From: Clostridia bacterium
GTDB taxonomy: Bacteria; Bacillota; Clostridia; Oscillospirales; CAG-272
Reading direction: 5' to 3'
DNA length: 60,565 bases
NCBI GenBank assembly: GCA_017411605.1
Contig: JAFQPR010000080.1
Location: 1 to 60,565, forward strand
A model generated the notes under the pieces. That model was given only the letters and a program-made list of their open reading frames with translations. It ran no database searches and was not told where the DNA came from. Below, one piece after another: positions 1,028 through 60,565 of this stretch; positions within the stretch are counted from its first letter, which is position 1; every line of letters starts with the position of its first letter. The position numbers and the translations under genes were made by a program.

Positions 1028-1636
1028 TCAAATATTTGTCAATTTTTTAACGAGATTCTCTACCCTCTCGCGTGAGCTTACGATATTCAGCGCTTCAAGG
1101 AGCGCCTTTGCGCTCATTCCCTCGGGGAGAGAGAGCTCGCGGCAGAGCGCGTCACGAAGTGAGGATGCCTTATCCGAGCCCGAGAGTCCGAGAGTGAACA
1201 TATCGAACGTGGTCATACCGCCTCGCGCCTGCAGCTCCTCGCCCTCGGTAAACGGCGTAAGAAGTCCGCGCAAAATATCGCCTCCGACTCCCTCAACACC
1301 GAGCAAGCCCGCCTTGCCGCGATGCGCCTTTCTTCTCTCCTTACCCTCTACCCGTGGTATATAAAGCTGATATATTTTGTCCTTTGGAACGAGTCCCGAG
1401 AGGAAGCTGCGTATCTGAGCGCCGCCGCCGTCGGAATCGGTGAGAATGATGATACCGTCTCCCGCTATCCTTCTGATAAGCGCCTGCTTCTCCTTCGAGT
1501 TGAATATTCCGAAGCCGTCCGTGGTAATTACCACGCCTGAGAACATACCGAGTATCGCGCTCTTGTCGTACCGTCCCTCAACGACGACGGGAAGGCGCAG
1601 GCGGGGGAGAGGCGTAAGCTTAGAATTTACCGTCAT
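1028..1636 (-). CDS. rnmV: RNase M5-like Toprim protein
   Basis: A 202-residue cytoplasmic Toprim-fold protein. RNase M5 matures 5S rRNA in Bacillota, and that is the most likely role. The N-terminal half has the Toprim signatures: VVEGRYDK (catalytic Glu near residue 19), then ILTDSDGGG with the DxD pair near residues 64-66, then a GVEGVGGDIL segment that corresponds to the GxEH block of RNase M5. The start at 1636 is preceded by AAGGAGT; an open frame continues 63 codons upstream only because it crosses the hairpin repeats, so that extension is rejected. It is the last gene of a minus-strand maf-nth-rnmV run, but about 800 nt of repeats separate it from nth. A primase-like or other small Toprim role is the alternative. 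Confidence 0.75.
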   Translation of the reverse strand: MTVNSKLTPLPRLRLPVVVEGRYDKSAILGMFSGVVITTDGFGIFNSKEKQALIRRIAGDGIIILTDSDGGGAQIRSFLSGLVPKDKIYQLYIPRVEGKERRKAHRGKAGLLGVEGVGGDILRGLLTPFTEGEELQARGGMTTFDMFTLGLSGSDKASSLRDALCRELSLPEGMSAKALLEALNIVSSRERVENLVKKLTNI

Positions 1637-1650
1637 TTTTACTCCTTCGT

Positions 1651-1887
1651 TTATACAAGACTTTGTCTTGATGATATACAAAGCGAAACGCTTTGATGAT
1701 ATACACAGCAGAGCCGTGATGATATACAAGACTTTGTCTTGATGATATACAAAGCGAAACGCTTTGATGATATACACAGCAGAACCGTGATGATATACAA
1801 AGCGGAACGCTTTGATGATATACACAGCAGAGCCGTGATGATATACAAGACTTTGTCTTGATGATATACAACGCCGGTGGCGTTGAT
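1651..1887 (+). repeat. Mini-hairpin array 1 (linker GATGATATAC)
   Basis: Ten palindromic units of 13-15 nt joined by the constant linker GATGATATAC. Unit cores in order: AAGACTTTGTCTT, AAAGCGAAACGCTTT, ACAGCAGAGCCGT, AAGACTTTGTCTT, AAAGCGAAACGCTTT, ACAGCAGAACCGT, AAAGCGGAACGCTTT, ACAGCAGAGCCGT, AAGACTTTGTCTT, AACGCCGGTGGCGTT. Each folds into a short stem with a 3-nt loop although the arm sequences are unrelated (the ACAGC type has one mismatched pair). The order A-B-C-A-B-C-B-C-A-D suggests block duplication. It lies just upstream of the rnmV ribosome site, in the nth-rnmV gap. No named repeat family is recognised. Confidence 0.9.
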
Positions 1888-1997
1888 TTGGTACGAAGCT
1901 AAAATTTTACTATAGCGCTTCGAAATAGTTTTACAAAAGGTTTCCTTTGCAACAGGTCCGTTGAGCAATGTTGAGTTCTCTTTTACTCGTACTCAAT

Positions 1998-2426
1998 CAA
2001 TGCGAAGCATTGCATATCATCAATGCAAAGCATTGCATATCATCAATGCGAAGCATTGCATATCATCAATGCGAAGCGTTGCATATCATCAATGCAAAGC
2101 ATTGCATATCATCAATGCGAAGCATTGCATATCATCAATGCGAAGCATTGCATATCATCAACGCGAAGCGTTGCATATCATCAATGCAAAGCATTGCATA
2201 TCATCAATGCGAAGCATTGCATATCATCAATGCGAAGCATTGCATATCATCAATGCGAAGCATTGCATATCATCAATGCGAAGCGTTGCATATCATCAAT
2301 GCGAAGCGTTGCATATCATCAACGCAAAGCGTTGCATATCATCAATGCGAAGCATTGCATATCATCAACGCGAAGCATTGCATATCATCAACGCAAAGCG
2401 TTGCATATCATCAATGCGAAGCATTG
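1998..2426 (-). repeat. Mini-hairpin array 2, 19 units at exact 23-nt period
   Basis: Nineteen units start at 1998 and every 23 nt after that, the last at 2412, with no indel. Each is a 15-nt palindrome of the type CAATGCGAAGCATTG followed on the plus strand by an 8-nt linker CATATCAT. Arms are ATGC/GCAT or ACGC/GCGT; loops are GAA or AAA. Fifteen of 19 units have fully matched arms, and the other four have a wobble-type mismatch. The linker, read on the minus strand, matches the GATGATAT of array 1, so the two arrays face opposite ways. It begins 8 nt past the nth stop and would be transcribed with it. There are no unique spacers, so it is not a CRISPR. Confidence 0.95.
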
Positions 2427-2433
2427 CATTTAC

Positions 2434-3087
2434 TCACTTTCTGTATTTCTCGCAAAGCTCTCCGAGAGGACACTCGCCGCACTTCGGCGCTCTTGCCGTG
2501 CAGACCTCTCTGCCGAAGGTAACTATCCTATGGCAGAAGTCGCTTCCTTCATTTATATCTATAAGGTCGCGCAGGATATACTCTATCTTTACGGCATCCT
2601 TAAGGCTCTCGGGGTACATTCCGAGCCTTCCGCATATCCTGATACAATGCGTATCGCAAACGATAGCTCCCTTGCCGAATACGTCACCGAGCAGAAGATT
2701 CGCTATCTTCCGTCCAACCCCCGGGAAGAGCAATAGCTCCTCCATAGTATCGGGCAGGACTCCGCCGAAGCTATCCCTAAGCATAACCGACGAGTCCTTG
2801 ATGTTCGCCGCCTTAGTTCTGTAGAGTCCGCAAGGCATAACTATTCTCTCAATATCTGCGAGGTCTGCATCCGCCATAGCGGCAAAATTCGGGTATTTTG
2901 CAAATAATTCTTTACAAACTATGTTAACTCGGGCATCCGTACACTGCGCGGAGAGCCTTCCCATAACGAGAAGCTTCCACGGGTCACCGCCGTACTCAAG
3001 CGCGCAGACTGACTCGGGGTATATCTCCTTGAGCCGCTCTACTACCAGAGCGAGTCTTTCTCTTTTTTCTCTCTTTGATTTTATCAT
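2434..3087 (-). CDS. nth: Endonuclease III (DNA glycosylase/AP lyase)
   Basis: Base-excision repair enzyme that removes oxidised pyrimidines and cuts at the abasic site. The 217 residues show the full family set: helix-hairpin-helix LLLFPGVGRKIAN with the catalytic lysine at K127, the catalytic aspartate D145 in CDTHCIR, and a C-terminal [4Fe-4S] motif C-X6-C-X2-C-X5-C (C196, C203, C206, C212). Length is normal for the family (about 210). It lies 16 nt behind maf, so the two are probably co-transcribed; the array of hairpins begins just past its stop codon and may form the 3' end of the transcript or a stability element. Identification is secure. Confidence 0.95.
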   Translation of the reverse strand: MIKSKREKRERLALVVERLKEIYPESVCALEYGGDPWKLLVMGRLSAQCTDARVNIVCKELFAKYPNFAAMADADLADIERIVMPCGLYRTKAANIKDSSVMLRDSFGGVLPDTMEELLLFPGVGRKIANLLLGDVFGKGAIVCDTHCIRICGRLGMYPESLKDAVKIEYILRDLIDINEGSDFCHRIVTFGREVCTARAPKCGECPLGELCEKYRK

Positions 3088-23900: not shown

Positions 23901-24052
23901 TGGTAGACCATCTCGATTGACTTGATCTAGTTCCGTGGCATTACCACGGAATTAGGTTCGCATTCCCCGCTCGAAGATCGAAGAGCTTGCTCTTCAGGCG
24001 CGAAGCGTGGGAATATTGACACAAAGTGTCAAAATCCTAGATGGTCAGCACC
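23901..24052. repeat. Degenerate mini-hairpins and a tRNA-end fragment
   Basis: Contains TTCCGTGG-N3-CCACGGAA, GAAGAGC-TT-GCTCTTC and TTGACAC-AAA-GTGTCAA, each a short stem with a tiny loop. TCCTAGATGGTC at 24035-24046 equals the 3' end of the tRNA-Met. No gene. Confidence 0.6.
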
Positions 24053-24340
24053 CCCTCGCGGTTATCTCTCTTTTGTTTATGTATCGTCTTGAACTTTAAC
24101 TTAGTCCTAACCGGTTTGAGCCGGAGGCTACATAATCGGGGCGAAGCCGAGTCGACAAGCTCGCTTGTCAGCGAGCGAGCGTAGATTGCTCCGCGGCGGT
24201 TCGTTGCAAGACGAACGTAGTGCGTAGCACCCAAGTACACCTCATCCACCATCAAAGATGGTCCCCCTTCTCCCACTGGAGAAGGCTTACGCAGTGCGTA
24301 GCACCAAAGACTTTAGTCTTTGCGCCGAATAGGAGTATAA
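24053..24340. repeat. 288-bp direct repeat, left copy
   Basis: Highly similar to 28702-28990 in the same orientation. The repeat is largely a chain of small palindromes, among them CCGGTTTGAGCCGG, CTCCGCGGCGG, ACCATC-AAA-GATGGT, CCTTCTCC-CACT-GGAGAAGG and AAAGACT-TT-AGTCTTT. At 24153-24168 the hairpin GACAAGC-TCG-CTTGTC is replaced in the right copy by GATGAGC-TT-GCTCATC, with both arms changed together. The two copies bracket an AT-rich insert with defence-like genes. No transposase or integrase gene is present. Confidence 0.88.
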
Positions 24341-28460: not shown

Positions 28461-28650
28461 TCCAAGCCGCAGGCTTGGTATGGCATCACGCTTTGGCGTG
28501 TATGGAATTGCCGTAGGCGTATGGCATCACCGAAGGTGCATATAATCACACATCAGCGTGTAGCCCCCCTGCAACTTGATGATATACAACACTTTGTGTT
28601 GGTGATATACAAAACTGCGTTTTGATGATATACACGCCACGGGCGTGATT
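28461..28650 (+). repeat. Mini-hairpin array 3
   Basis: Units include CCAAGCC-GCA-GGCTTGG, CACGC-TTTG-GCGTG, CACC-GAA-GGTG, then CAACAC-TTT-GTGTTG, AAAAC-TGC-GTTTT and CACGCC-ACG-GGCGTG, the last three separated by GATATAC linkers as in array 1. The first half uses a diverged ATGGCATC linker. Not coding. Confidence 0.85.
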
Positions 28651-28691: not shown

Positions 28692-28722
28692 AGAGAGATA
28701 ACCCTCGCGGTTATCTCTCTTT
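28692..28722 (+). terminator. Hairpin at the edge of the right repeat copy
   Basis: AGAGAGATAACC / GGTTATCTCTCT around CTCGC, followed by TTTTG. The left arm is missing in the left copy of the 288-bp repeat, where tRNA-like sequence takes its place. Confidence 0.7.
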
Positions 28723-28990
28723 TGTTTATGTATCGTCTTGAACTTTAGCTTAGTCCTAACCGGTTTGAGCCGGAGGCTACATAATCGGGGCGAAGCCGAG
28801 TCGATGAGCTTGCTCATCAGGGAGGCGAGCGCAGATTGCTCCGCGGCGGTTCGTTGCAAGACGAACGTAGTGCGTAGCACCCAAGTACACCTCATCCACC
28901 ATCAAAGATGGTCCCCCTTCTCCCACTGGAGAAGGCTTACGCAGTGCGTAGCACCAAAGACCTTAGTCTTTGCGCCGAATAGGAGTATAA
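28702..28990. repeat. 288-bp direct repeat, right copy
   Basis: Partner of 24053-24340, 289 bp, with few differences except a compensatory arm swap in one mini-hairpin (28801-28817 region, GATGAGC-TT-GCTCATC). It is followed by a second TCGGGGCGAAGCCGAG string, which also occurs inside the repeat. It ends 28 nt from the VanZ gene stop. Confidence 0.88.
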
Positions 28991-29018
28991 TCGGGGCGAA
29001 GCCGAGCCTGTGAGCTTA

Positions 29019-29693
29019 TCAATATCTCCCCGATAAAATCGCAAAATAAAAATCTAACATAGCAATAGTTTTGACAAGCGCGTAGCTCGCCAAAACGGCC
29101 GCCATACCAAGCGCGACGTACGATACAACGTTCAATACTCTGATGCGCTTTTGCGTATCCCTGTAAATCAGCTTATAGAGTAAGCAACCGAGAGTACCGC
29201 CAAGAGTGTTGGTAACAAGATCAAGGGAATCGAAGTATCCGATGTGGGTAATAAGCTGCATAGCTTCAAAGCATAAGCTCAAAACGAACGACGCGACAAT
29301 CGCCTTCGGTAGTTTTCGACTCTTGATAAAGTATCCAAGGTAAAGCCCGAAGGGTAAGAAAGCAACTACGTTTAATATATCCTGTCTTGGATGAGCCCAA
29401 ACCGCCTTCCACGTGTTTTTATTTAAGAGAGAGAGAAAGCTCTTCTTCGCTATTTGGAGCTTATCCGCAGCGCTCATACCTTTAAAAAGATAGTACGTAT
29501 CGGTAATGGTGACCTTCATATTGCATTTGAGCGAAATCAGCCATACAAGCAAGAATATATATAAAGAAAAAATAAGTATCGACATAGTGCGAAACCTGCG
29601 AGCATCTGACGTGTCTATAAATCTTTCTCGCATAGGTGCGGCTTTTTCCTCGCTAACAGCCTTGCTGTTTGAAAAACGTTCCCGTTTTTTCAT
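29019..29693 (-). CDS. VanZ-family membrane protein
   Basis: A 224-residue inner-membrane protein. After a charged N-terminus (1-35) come four or five helices: about 36-58, 105-122 (DILNVVAFLPFGLYLGY), 130-150, 158-175 and 190-212. The stretch NVVAFLPFGLYLG with FDSLDLVTNTLGGTLG is the VanZ-like signature. VanZ proteins modulate susceptibility to glycopeptides or alter surface accessibility; here no van cluster is nearby, so only the family is asserted. RBS GGGAGGG precedes the ATG. Stands alone next to the right end of the insert. Confidence 0.85.
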   Translation of the reverse strand: MKKRERFSNSKAVSEEKAAPMRERFIDTSDARRFRTMSILIFSLYIFLLVWLISLKCNMKVTITDTYYLFKGMSAADKLQIAKKSFLSLLNKNTWKAVWAHPRQDILNVVAFLPFGLYLGYFIKSRKLPKAIVASFVLSLCFEAMQLITHIGYFDSLDLVTNTLGGTLGCLLYKLIYRDTQKRIRVLNVVSYVALGMAAVLASYALVKTIAMLDFYFAILSGRY

Positions 29694-35560: not shown

Positions 35561-35635
35561 AATCCCGCTCCAAAAAACTTTTTCTTAAGTTTATCACAAC
35601 GTACCTTAAATGTCAAGCGGAGAACACGCAACGAA

Positions 35636-35770
35636 TTGCAACCTTGCGACAGTATGAATTGACACCTAGTGTCATAAATTGCCTTCGACATGAATTCTGC
35701 CCTCGTCACATCCGTTGCAATTCAATTCATGGAGTAGGCGAAGCGCCAACGAGAAATCATGGCGTAGCCA
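35636..35770. repeat. Degenerate mini-hairpin cluster
   Basis: Contains TTGACAC-CTA-GTGTCA, GGCGAAGCGCC-like and GGC-GTA-GCC palindromes separated by variants of AATTCATGG/AATTGCC. No gene. Similar to the other hairpin clusters but with a different linker. Confidence 0.5.
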
Positions 35771-35777
35771 ACAAAAA

Positions 35778-35822
35778 AACGGTAGAGATATTGTTATACA
35801 CAGTACCTCTACCATATTTTTG
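35778..35822. terminator. Terminator before the 35840 lipoprotein end
   Basis: GGTAGAG...CTCTACC stem with ATATTTTTG on the plus strand; on the minus strand it lies 18 nt past the lipoprotein stop. Confidence 0.7.
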
Positions 35823-38273: not shown

Positions 38274-38350
38274 GGAGGCATAGCTCAGTTGGTTAGAGTA
38301 CTTGCTTGACATGCAAGGGGTCACTAGTTCGAGTCTAGTTGTCTCCACCA
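38274..38350 (+). tRNA. tRNA-Val (anticodon GAC)
   Basis: A 77-nt cloverleaf with encoded CCA: acceptor GGAGGCA/TGTCTCC, D arm, anticodon stem CTTGC/GCAAG around TTGACAT, T arm with TTCGAGT. Confidence 0.95.
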
Positions 38351-38395: not shown

Positions 38396-38566
38396 CCATT
38401 GCGAAAGCAATGGCATATCATCACGCTTTAGCGTGTATATCATCGCAGCAGGCGTATCTCATCAGCCGCAGGCTGTATCCGCTTTCGCAATGATGATATA
38501 CAACACTCCGTGTTGATGATATGCAATTCCTACGGAATTGATGATATACAAGGCTTATGCCTTGAT
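38396..38566. repeat. Mini-hairpin array 4, reversing orientation inside
   Basis: Units: CCATTGC-GAA-AGCAATGG type, CACGC-TTTA-GCGTG, a CGC-AGCA-GGCG unit, CAGCC-GCA-GGCTG, then CAACAC-TCC-GTGTTG, CAATTCC-TAC-GGAATTG and CAAGGC-TTAT-GCCTTG. Linkers read TATATCATC in the first half and GATGATATAC in the second, so the array flips near 38480; ATTGCGAAAGC (38399-38409) is the reverse complement of GCTTTCGCAAT (38481-38491). Confidence 0.85.
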
Positions 38567-38590
38567 TTATTTACGAAAATATGGTATAAT
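38562..38590 (+). promoter_or_regulatory. Promoter whose -35 is the end of array 4
   Basis: TTGATT (38562-38567), 17-nt spacer, TATAAT (38585-38590). The -35 is formed by the right arm and linker of the last hairpin unit. Confidence 0.65.
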
Positions 38591-38924: not shown

Positions 38925-39177
38925 ATTCCAATTTGTCGAGCAGGCAACCGCGTGAAATTACACACCTTTTCACTGTTCTTTCGCAACAAAAAACGCATCT
39001 TTGCGACCAACGGGAGCAACATCATTTTAAGCGAAGCAAAAAACATCATATCGCCGCAGGCGATGCATCATTTGACAAACAACTGATTTTATAATTGCAA
39101 GCCGCAGGAGAGCTGACAGCGCATCTCATAACAACTAAAATTCAATAGAGGCTCTTCAATAGAAGCCTTAGTAAAAA
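38925..39177. other. Gene-free region with decayed hairpin units
   Basis: No gene. Contains ATATCGCC-GCA-GGCGATGCATCAT around 39045-39072, recalling the hairpin-plus-ATCAT units of arrays 2 and 4, and other decayed pieces. Confidence 0.45.
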
Positions 39178-49554: not shown

Positions 49555-49695
49555 TATACCTTTATTTTTCGGCAGTAACAAATGAAGTTTTCGCTGATGC
49601 GAAAGTGAAGTTAAATTTGCCCACTTTGCCGAAGGCAAAACTTCACTTACACATAAAACTTCGCTTTGCCACTTAGGGCAAACTTAGCCTGACAC
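49555..49695. repeat. Hairpin cluster with AAGTGAAGTT linkers
   Basis: Units TTCGC-TGAT-GCGAA, TTTGCC-GAA-GGCAAA and a TTGCC...GGCAA unit separated by AAGTGAAGTT / AACTTCACTT. The design is like the GATGATATAC arrays but with another linker. The linker also occurs inverted, giving a larger palindrome. Not coding. Confidence 0.7.
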
Positions 49696-49744
49696 CTGTC
49701 AAAGAGCAGGTGCTCCAAGCGGACTATATTTTAACGATTCTTAT

Positions 49745-55439: not shown

Positions 55440-55447
55440 TTTAAAGC

Positions 55448-55955
55448 GGTGTATTTTGTGATAACCGGAAATGACGAATTTATATTTAATAAACTCTGTT
55501 AGCTGACGAAAGTCCGTGCGAATTTATTTTAGCTAAGGTTGAAACACTCCGTGTTTCTTCCGTTTGATTATAGTCATTTCCTATCTCCGTTTTCCCACCT
55601 CGCCGTACCCTCGTACGGCTCTCGGTGTGAAGAACGAAGATTTCTCATCAAAATCTCCTCGCATCAGGCTTTTACTAAATCTTGTGCTTTGTGCTAACCC
55701 GGTGTATTTTGTGATAACCGGAAATGACGAATTTATATTCAGTAAGCTCTGTTAGCTGACGAAAGTCAGTGCGAATTTATTTTAGCTGAGGTTGAAACAC
55801 TCCGTGTTTCTTCCGTTTGATTATTGTCATTTCCTATCTCCGTTTTCCCACCTCGCCGTACCCTCGTAAGGCTCTCGGCGTGAAGAACGAAGATTTCTCT
55901 CCAAAACCCCCTCGCTTTAAAGGCTTTTACTACACCTTTTACTTTGTGCTAATTC
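55448..55955. repeat. Two tandem ~254-bp repeats with conserved hairpins
   Basis: Copies at 55448-55700 and 55701-55955 with a partial third at 55956-55995. Each has an outer stem GGAAATGAC (55467-55475) / GTCATTTCC (55573-55581) and an inner hairpin GAAACAC-TCC-GTGTTTC (55541-55557). A diverged single copy at about 60405-60530 has GAAAATGAC / GTCATTTTC and GAAATTC-TAC-GAATTTC, with the pairing kept through compensatory changes. No SD-led reading frame; a 63-codon frame at 55564 is not conserved. Function unknown; RNA element or mobile repeat. Confidence 0.85.
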
Positions 55956-60404: not shown

Positions 60405-60530
60405 GCGCAACCGAAAATGACAAACAACGACATAAAGAAGCTCTAAAATCAACAAATGAGCTAAGAATATGTGTTATAAGGTTGAAATTCTACGAATTTC
60501 TCCATCAAATTAAAGTCATTTTCTATTTGC
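60405..60530. repeat. Diverged single copy of the 55.4-kb repeat
   Basis: Outer stem GAAAATGAC (60413-60421) / GTCATTTTC (60515-60523); inner hairpin GAAATTC-TAC-GAATTTC (60484-60500). It matches the tandem repeats at 55448-55955 in order and flanks (GGTTGAAA, AGTCATTT, TCC.CC.TCG), with the stems changed compensatorily. No gene from 60358 to the window end. Confidence 0.75.
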
Positions 60531-60565
60531 GTTTCCCTCCCTCGACATAATTTTATACGCCTCAC

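Follow-up and report, generated by a model that had tools for sequence, protein, structure and literature searches.

Why should rows of short hairpins stand between ordinary genes, with stems that vary yet stay paired and linkers that stay fixed? The question is raised by a 60,565-nt stretch of a Clostridia bacterium genome (contig JAFQPR010000080.1; "the window" hereafter means this whole stretch), in which the original prediction, made from the letters alone, described four arrays of tandem mini-hairpins with changing but complementary arms, a constant linker and no named repeat family that its author recognised. The prediction was partly borne out; what it missed is the shared polarity of loops and linkers, the inverted bipartite layout, the insertion character of the arrays and a link to PF05635 proteins with clade-specific linkers. 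With moderate confidence we propose that the arrays are DNA recognition modules of mobile elements encoding a protein of that family (23S_rRNA_IVP, 23S rRNA-intervening sequence protein; IVP), and that the window's four arrays, A to D, are stand-alone, amplified copies.

Four hairpin arrays in the window

All four predicted arrays are present (Table 1). Perfect hairpins (arm 6, loop 3-5) numbered 11, 18, 5 and 5 in A, B, C and D, against means of 0.15, 2.8, 0.19 and 0.25 in 500 dinucleotide shuffles per array, and each count lay above its shuffle maximum (3, 10, 3 and 3). This test, together with a reversed-pattern control that gave 0 matches in 69 of 69 same-genus genomes, led us to reject a chance origin. 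The predicted unit of a hairpin plus a fixed linker stood, with its borders better set as a CA...TG hairpin (mostly 14-17 nt, loop 3-4) followed by an 8-nt linker, ATGATATA/G (ATGATATR) or ATGATATG. Units are mostly 23-25 nt long, which under a coding-repeat reading would shift the frame. At gathering score, Rfam recognised two tRNAs only in the window.

Table 1. Positions of the arrays, their parts and associated features in the window
Feature	Position	Strand	Description
DUF4093/Toprim-like gene	1028-1636	-	
Array A	1656-1887	+	10 hairpins, mostly three types in ABC order; 9 linkers ATGATATA on +
Array B	1998-2426	-	19 hairpins CAAYGC-TTY-GCRTTG read on -; 18 linkers ATGATATG
Endonuclease III gene	2434-3087	-	stop codon abuts array B
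Array C	28462-28649		bipartite element, 3' of terminator-like hairpin (by eye)
Array C right-half hairpins	28587-28601, 28610-28624, 28633-28647		
Decayed element	35600-35780		AATTCAT-class linkers
tRNA gene	38274-38347		followed directly by its terminator-like hairpin and array D
Array D	38396-38567		complete bipartite element, seven hairpins
Array D hp1	38396-38413	+	CCATTGC-GAAA-GCAATGG
Array D left hairpins hp2-hp4	38422-38475	+	
Array D right hairpins hp5-hp7	38501-38515, 38524-38540, 38549-38564 (38501-38564)	+	linkers ATGATATG/A
Half-element remnant	38985-39090		ACATCAT-like linkers (by eye)
Half-element remnant	49560-49700		ACTTCAC-like linkers (by eye)

Linker orientation is uniform in A and B and flips half-way in C and D. 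Arrays A and B, which the prediction had treated as the core, turned out to be the tandemly amplified, least informative copies: three hairpin types dominate A and a single type dominates B, and since both consist mostly of tandem copies they are weak evidence for independent arms. The loops of B read GAA or AAA on the + strand; among its 19 units are 4 mispaired intermediates and 3 with a compensated ACGC/GCGT stem. The linkers of C are TATGGCAT/TATGGAAT-like in the left half and ATGATATA/GTGATATA in the right, and those of D are TATATCAT-type on the left and ATGATATR on the right. In D, the 5' arm and loop of hp1 are complementary to a middle segment, CTTTCGCAATG, which lies just 5' of the first ATGATATA. 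The strand of D folds well as single-stranded DNA (z -6.2), its minimum-energy fold using some linker pairs, whereas array B has a z of only -2.0, its copies also pairing mutually in the minimum-energy fold. As for a trunk built by pairing linker with linker, left variants such as TATCTCAT had, by eye, no matching right variants.

Six more clusters occur in the window's own genome, on contigs C11, C54, C75 (two), C88 and C94. Isolated single linkers in this genome were set aside, 14 of 20 stretches inspected having one linker within ordinary sequence, which we took as chance matches. Counting the decayed element and the two half-element remnants, the window seems to have collected four element families, ATGATATR and three other linker classes. 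Two further repeats were seen there: one of a few hundred nt with several hairpins, present in two copies (23933-24340 and 28698-29020) and not of the array type, and an intergenic one (55440-55860 and 60440-60565) with GAAACACTCCGTGTTTC-type hairpins inside a longer repeated block.

Stem pairing and insertion sites in relatives

A search of relatives by linker spacing and a measurement of arm covariation, both put forward with the original prediction, came out in its favour. The two-linker pattern (two linkers 9-15 nt apart) was found in 27 of the 69 same-genus genomes. Among public genomes, at least 116 stretches also had it; by their titles these are MAGs of Bacillota, almost all with Clostridia-type names. 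Linker-bounded segments comprised 230 distinct sequences among 444 (a total that includes overlapping loci taken twice), with 18 perfect arm types among the distinct 15-mers, rather than the one conserved palindrome per family that defines REP sequences. Across 66 distinct 15-nt units, selected by their two flanking linkers and not by pairing, standard pairs filled 95.2% of pair cells as against 69.1% in column shuffles; the covariation score was 0.640 as against 0.143, and sliding the columns by 1-3 positions left at most 58.6% paired. When units were instead selected by a perfect hairpin and the linker before it, with no demand on what followed, the two bases after the hairpin remained A (290 of 305 cases) and T (299 of 305).

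Column shuffles leave the relatedness among rows in place; the covariation argument gains further weight from an orthologous pair of arrays and from finding this design repeatedly, in 18 linker classes. The two arrays of the pair (L096 and L146, both from Christensenella assemblies) each follow the same tRNA gene, and their flank is 78% identical over 800 nt. Between the two, linkers are conserved except in the last base; hp5 has two compensated base-pair differences, hp6 has lost one base pair on both arms, hp4 and hp7 differ in their loops only, and hp2 and hp3 show larger changes, wobble pairs included. Stem changes in this pair, the sole orthologous one found, are largely compensated, and the uncompensated arm mutation by which selection for hairpins was to be refuted did not appear. 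Thus stem pairing is maintained and stem sequence is free, while the linker is fixed.

The arrays also have the character of insertions. A and B occupy the 789-nt gap between the endonuclease III and DUF4093/Toprim-like genes. The endonuclease gene was found in 58 of the 69 genomes, and the loci of 29 relatives were compared: in 28 of them the start of the DUF4093 match lies between -33 and +144 nt relative to the endonuclease III stop, the contig of the 29th ending there. ATGATATR words in the next 900 nt of the 28 loci were absent in 25 and single in 3. By this comparison of sequences, A and B split a gene pair that is adjacent in 28 relatives, where the site is empty. More generally, a tRNA gene (14 types) is found no more than 150 nt from 57 of the 164 ATGATATR array clusters, as against 6.6% of random segments from the same loci. 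Locus L234 (in G025) has two IVP elements, located 3' of a tRNA-Leu gene and of a duplicated 3' portion of tRNA-Leu; an identical copy of the second element's terminator, with a related array, occurs at another place there without IVP.

The IVP gene and the anatomy of complete elements

Comparison of flanks revealed a block of ~370 bp that recurs next to many arrays and is an ORF of ~115 aa. Its product matches PF05635 (E 6.7e-18) and TIGR02436 (E 1.1e-19), and its profile matches PDB entries 2rld (E 4.1e-41) and 2gsc (E 3e-6). PF05635 is found in 58 of the 69 same-genus genomes, and most of the IVP genes inspected (up to 30 loci, then 80 more), of many sequence types, have hairpins and a repeated linker of their own upstream.

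We quantified this association in 102 IVP ORFs sampled by PF05635 alone, which avoids bias towards the array pattern, and having at least 300 nt upstream. An ORF counted as positive when any of 18 linker words occurred at least 3 times in up to 480 nt upstream, and non-IVP ORFs were scored without the word by which their loci had been found. A repeated linker preceded 77 of the 102 IVP ORFs (one, L202, being a known false call), compared with 20 of 425 non-IVP ORFs and none of 306 shuffled upstream regions; the 77/102 fraction is optimistic, because the word list was drawn from the same data. The remaining 25 of the 102 had no repeated linker upstream. Hairpin counts that use no word list agree with the association: the mean per 480 nt was 5.16 upstream of IVP and 1.84 upstream of 356 linker-free non-IVP ORFs, with at least 5 hairpins in 68 of 102 and 22 of 356, respectively.

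On a weakly resolved tree of 128 IVP proteins (102 columns), the linker classes required 24 changes for 18 states over 101 rows (minimum 17), whereas 200 label shuffles gave a minimum of 69 and a mean of 75.6. Linker class therefore follows the IVP tree, which we read as co-inheritance with a conserved linker and not yet as recognition; linker and gene are adjacent and inherited together, so tree agreement alone is no proof that the protein reads the linker. IVP genes from further families and orders within the class have arrays too, such as those with TTTAGCT/AGCTAAA linkers (in L370, L372, L375 and L377). No array was recognised in the inspected loci of 'VWQKAHELVLEIYK'-type IVPs outside the genus.

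Some features of the IVP proteins were noted in passing. A second IVP class ('IIETKSFDFAVRIVNLYKHL' and relatives; L202, L204, L205, L210-L212, L214, L216 and L222) mostly lacks a hairpin array; its members have short tandem repeats in inverted orientation on their two sides, such as AAATGCAAAATGC / GCATTTTGCATTT, and several of the copies are next to tRNA-Leu-like sequences. An alignment of 58 IVPs has eleven invariant columns, many of them polar, including Q33, S40, N44, E47, D56, K66, E67, E70 and W74 (numbered as in L144, its first sequence); this is more than would be expected of a mere scaffold.

A complete ATGATATR-class element begins with a terminator-like hairpin, followed by hp1, linker, hp2, linker, hp3, linker, hp4 and a middle segment; its right half then runs through inverted linkers in the order linker', hp5, linker', hp6, linker', hp7, a short leader and the IVP gene. 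The layout of other linker classes is similar; usually there is one flip, with three to five linkers to either side of it. Exactly one linker flip was seen in 66 of 104 elements of all classes (permutation mean 4.3, maximum 12), the commonest linker strings being four-plus-four (15 elements) and three-plus-four (13). The other 38 of the 104 had no single clean flip, probably in part as a result of neighbouring arrays and one-mismatch matches. In the ATGATATR class, a complement of at least 8 nt between hp1 and the middle segment was present in 46 of 73 distinct pairs, through 9 different sequences, as against a mean of 10.3 and a maximum of 21 upon re-pairing; a cruder test across all classes gave 19 of 53, where 0.35 was expected. 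Complementarity of the middle segment to its 5' arm and loop gives hp1 a possible choice of two partners.

Behind the IVP gene, a same-strand ORF lies within 200 nt in 32 of the 43 elements with enough sequence, 9 of the 32 having an exact ATGA overlap. These ORFs belong to diverse Pfam families, none listed in more than 2 of the 32, and may be cargo or simply neighbours. By eye, 13 elements shared no common sequence after the IVP stop, and no element 3' end, junction or target duplication was found.

An IVP-family ORF is thus carried by elements in relatives and not by the window's own arrays. In the window's genome, which is 81.8% complete, the matching IVP clade is unrepresented (best identity 49%). 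In the DNA examined, an IVP ORF lies within 500 nt of 19 of the 164 ATGATATR clusters, 83 of which could be viewed over 800 nt on both sides. With so few clusters near an IVP gene, most array copies appear without one in the DNA examined, and MAG incompleteness may lie behind part of these. Across genomes, ATGATATR arrays occur in 7 of 9 with a cognate IVP and in 20 of 60 others (Fisher p = 0.023, at a cut-off of 79% identity chosen afterwards and with cis arrays counted too), a weak association in trans. Of the 69 genomes, 26 have ATATCGA pairs five times or more, 50 have any match and 9 have reversed-pattern matches; the genomes that bear the pairs outnumber the five IVP genes of that clade retrieved. 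Six stretches of IMG/VR viral contigs (L177-L182) also carry ATGATATR arrays, and an HMM search found no IVP ORF in those stretches.

Possible reading of the arrays by IVP

Loop sequence bears on whether the arrays act as DNA or RNA. On the linker's TCA strand (or its equivalent in other classes), loops were GxA in 114, TxC in 7 and other in 83 of 204 units. The GxA:TxC ratio was 56:4 where the TCA strand is sense to IVP and 58:3 where it is antisense, and 56:8 and 64:0, respectively, with looser linkers (235 units). In the ATATCGA class, 58 perfect hairpins, out of 110 distinct strings among the matches listed, had 39 GxA, 0 TxC and 19 other loops. The bias is thus towards GNA/GNNA, mostly 3-nt GNA, whichever strand is transcribed; such loops, when closed by GC pairs, are described in a passage of PMC4686876 as forming extraordinarily stable DNA mini-hairpins. 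Because loop type follows the linker onto the antisense strand, which an mRNA function would not allow, loop polarity points to a DNA rather than an mRNA role. Single mispairs on the TCA strand leaned to G.T over A.C (11:0; 18 GT to 7 AC under relaxed settings, the sense group contributing 6 of the 7 AC); the signal is weak and the cases are few.

These observations weigh against the foremost alternative, that pairing is selected in RNA and the array is a structured leader of the IVP mRNA, serving autoregulation, transcript protection or RNase III processing as in rRNA intervening sequences. In ACTTCAC-class elements the array runs almost to the start codon with a TATAAT-like motif between them in 0 of 15, so it may be transcribed, and RNase III is reported to excise the Coxiella IVS RNA (a passage of PMC4990558). 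However, loop type and linker flip together, so that GNA loops are sense in one half of an element and antisense in the other; the ATATCAT class has a TATAAT-like motif 3' of the last linker in 12 of 17 elements; and the L146 array keeps its structure without an IVP ORF aligned to that of L096. We consider an RNA role unlikely.

Palindromes might also arise neutrally, one arm correcting the other by template switching within hairpins, with no protein reading them. The tandem copies and mispaired intermediates of array B and the symmetric loss of a base pair from hp6 fit such copying, but it leaves unexplained why linkers are constant within an IVP clade and differ between clades, and why there is a single inversion and a strand-polar GNA/GNNA loop bias; as a full account it is improbable. 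Slightly less probable still is that the linkers are operator or nucleoid sites, bound as double-stranded DNA by IVP or a host protein that regulates the adjacent gene, with the hairpins as spacers or cruciforms. Arrays do lie directly 5' of the IVP gene, and by eye the end of hp7 forms a -35-like TTGATT in some ATATCAT-class elements; yet spacers need neither covarying stems nor GNA loops on one strand, and in the DNA examined, 145 of the 164 ATGATATR clusters lack an IVP ORF within 500 nt.

REP/BIME elements moved by RAYT or IS200-type Y1 transposases, suggested by palindromes in intergenic DNA and two Y1 genes in the window's own genome, were rejected as very improbable: stems are free; the GTAG (or CGTC) tag that stands beside the palindrome in the definition given in part of PMC3733652 was nearly absent (GTAG/CTAC in the 8 nt of the following linker in 1 of 305 distinct hairpin-linker pairs); Y1 matches (PF01797, as for a cognate RAYT) occur in 10 of the 27 genomes with arrays and in 8 of the other 42, with none in the array-rich, 95% complete G011; and the RAYT-like gene of L195 has, by eye, GTAGGGGAGG palindromes of its own. 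That gene (L195 1180-2640, in G050) is flanked by these palindromes and lies between an ATGATATR array and a GTGATGA-linker array. REP/BIME systems with RAYT (REPtrons) resemble the present one in having a gene for a small nucleic-acid protein beside cognate palindromes, with copies spread away from the gene; they differ in that the arrays here have a free stem, a fixed linker and no GTAG, and an unrelated four-helix-bundle protein in place of a Y1 HuH enzyme.

We therefore return to recognition modules of IVP-encoding elements. We infer DNA binding by IVP, because of its protein family, and likewise the chemistry of transposition. A family relative from Xanthomonas forms a pentameric ring. 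The four-helix-bundle protein would bind the folded single strand, in which it would recognise the linker's sequence and the hairpin's shape, and the inverted module sets would be element ends or assembly sites. Elements would settle beside terminator-like hairpins, often 3' of tRNA genes, and arrays without IVP would have moved in trans or been left behind, then amplified by slippage or unequal exchange. The cleaving or joining enzyme would be expected to be a host factor or a reverse transcriptase rather than IVP itself.

The main support for this mechanism is the parallel with diversity-generating retroelements (DGRs), with their free-stem hairpin, GRNA loop and Avd-PF05635 kinship. Avd is reported to be homologous to PF05635 (DGRs in immunity, part of PMC10053308), and in the target-DNA hairpin of DGRs pairing is needed and stem sequence is not, with a GRNA loop (part of PMC3240598). 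Both systems share a free-stem hairpin with a G-N-N-A-type loop (here mostly 3-nt GNA, with 83 of 204 loops of neither type); unlike DGRs, the arrays combine many hairpins with fixed linkers. The 23S rRNA intervening sequence, for its part, has the same protein family and, in the parts of PMC4990558 consulted, is a selfish element with self-complementary parts and a small ORF; the seven-hairpin array, clade-specific linkers and stand-alone copies seen here are absent from those passages, and Rfam found no rRNA in the window or in 17 loci scanned.

CRISPR repeats are ~25-40 nt long, with unrelated spacers and cas genes; here the repeat measures 8 nt, with palindromes in the place of spacers. 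Altae-Tran et al. 2023 (PMC10910872) list six hypervariable non-CRISPR interspaced repeat arrays, two of them (AddB-like, GGDEF) described in the text considered, and its Fig. 6B legend names IVP among the associations of CRISPR adaptation modules. The present arrays likewise have regular repeats, variable spacers and apparently no cas genes. Among titles and abstract openings of the open-licence literature, with subscription papers and supplements outside the scope, we found no description of IVP-linked hairpin arrays. Within that scope, we regard the pairing of a known protein family with a known type of DNA hairpin as new, with overlap with PMC10910872 possible.

A wider proposal is that IVP/Avd-type four-helix-bundle proteins define a large undescribed class of mobile elements, perhaps carrying gene cassettes, in which ordered single-stranded DNA mini-hairpins are read by shape and by a clade-specific linker code; hundreds of module pairs would then lie in one genus of gut Clostridia, many far from IVP, and the ATGA-overlap ORFs would be captured cargo. 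We hold this to be possible, with slightly less than even confidence. IVP-family proteins are without known function according to part of the Coxiella IVS paper (PMC4990558), and most sampled members in the genus now gain a candidate DNA partner, in 18 linker classes, which makes their function directly testable. If true, the proposal would explain a class of intergenic hairpin repeats, and would provide an evolutionary counterpart to the Avd/hairpin part of DGRs as well as a natural set of candidate linker-reading, hairpin-binding proteins.
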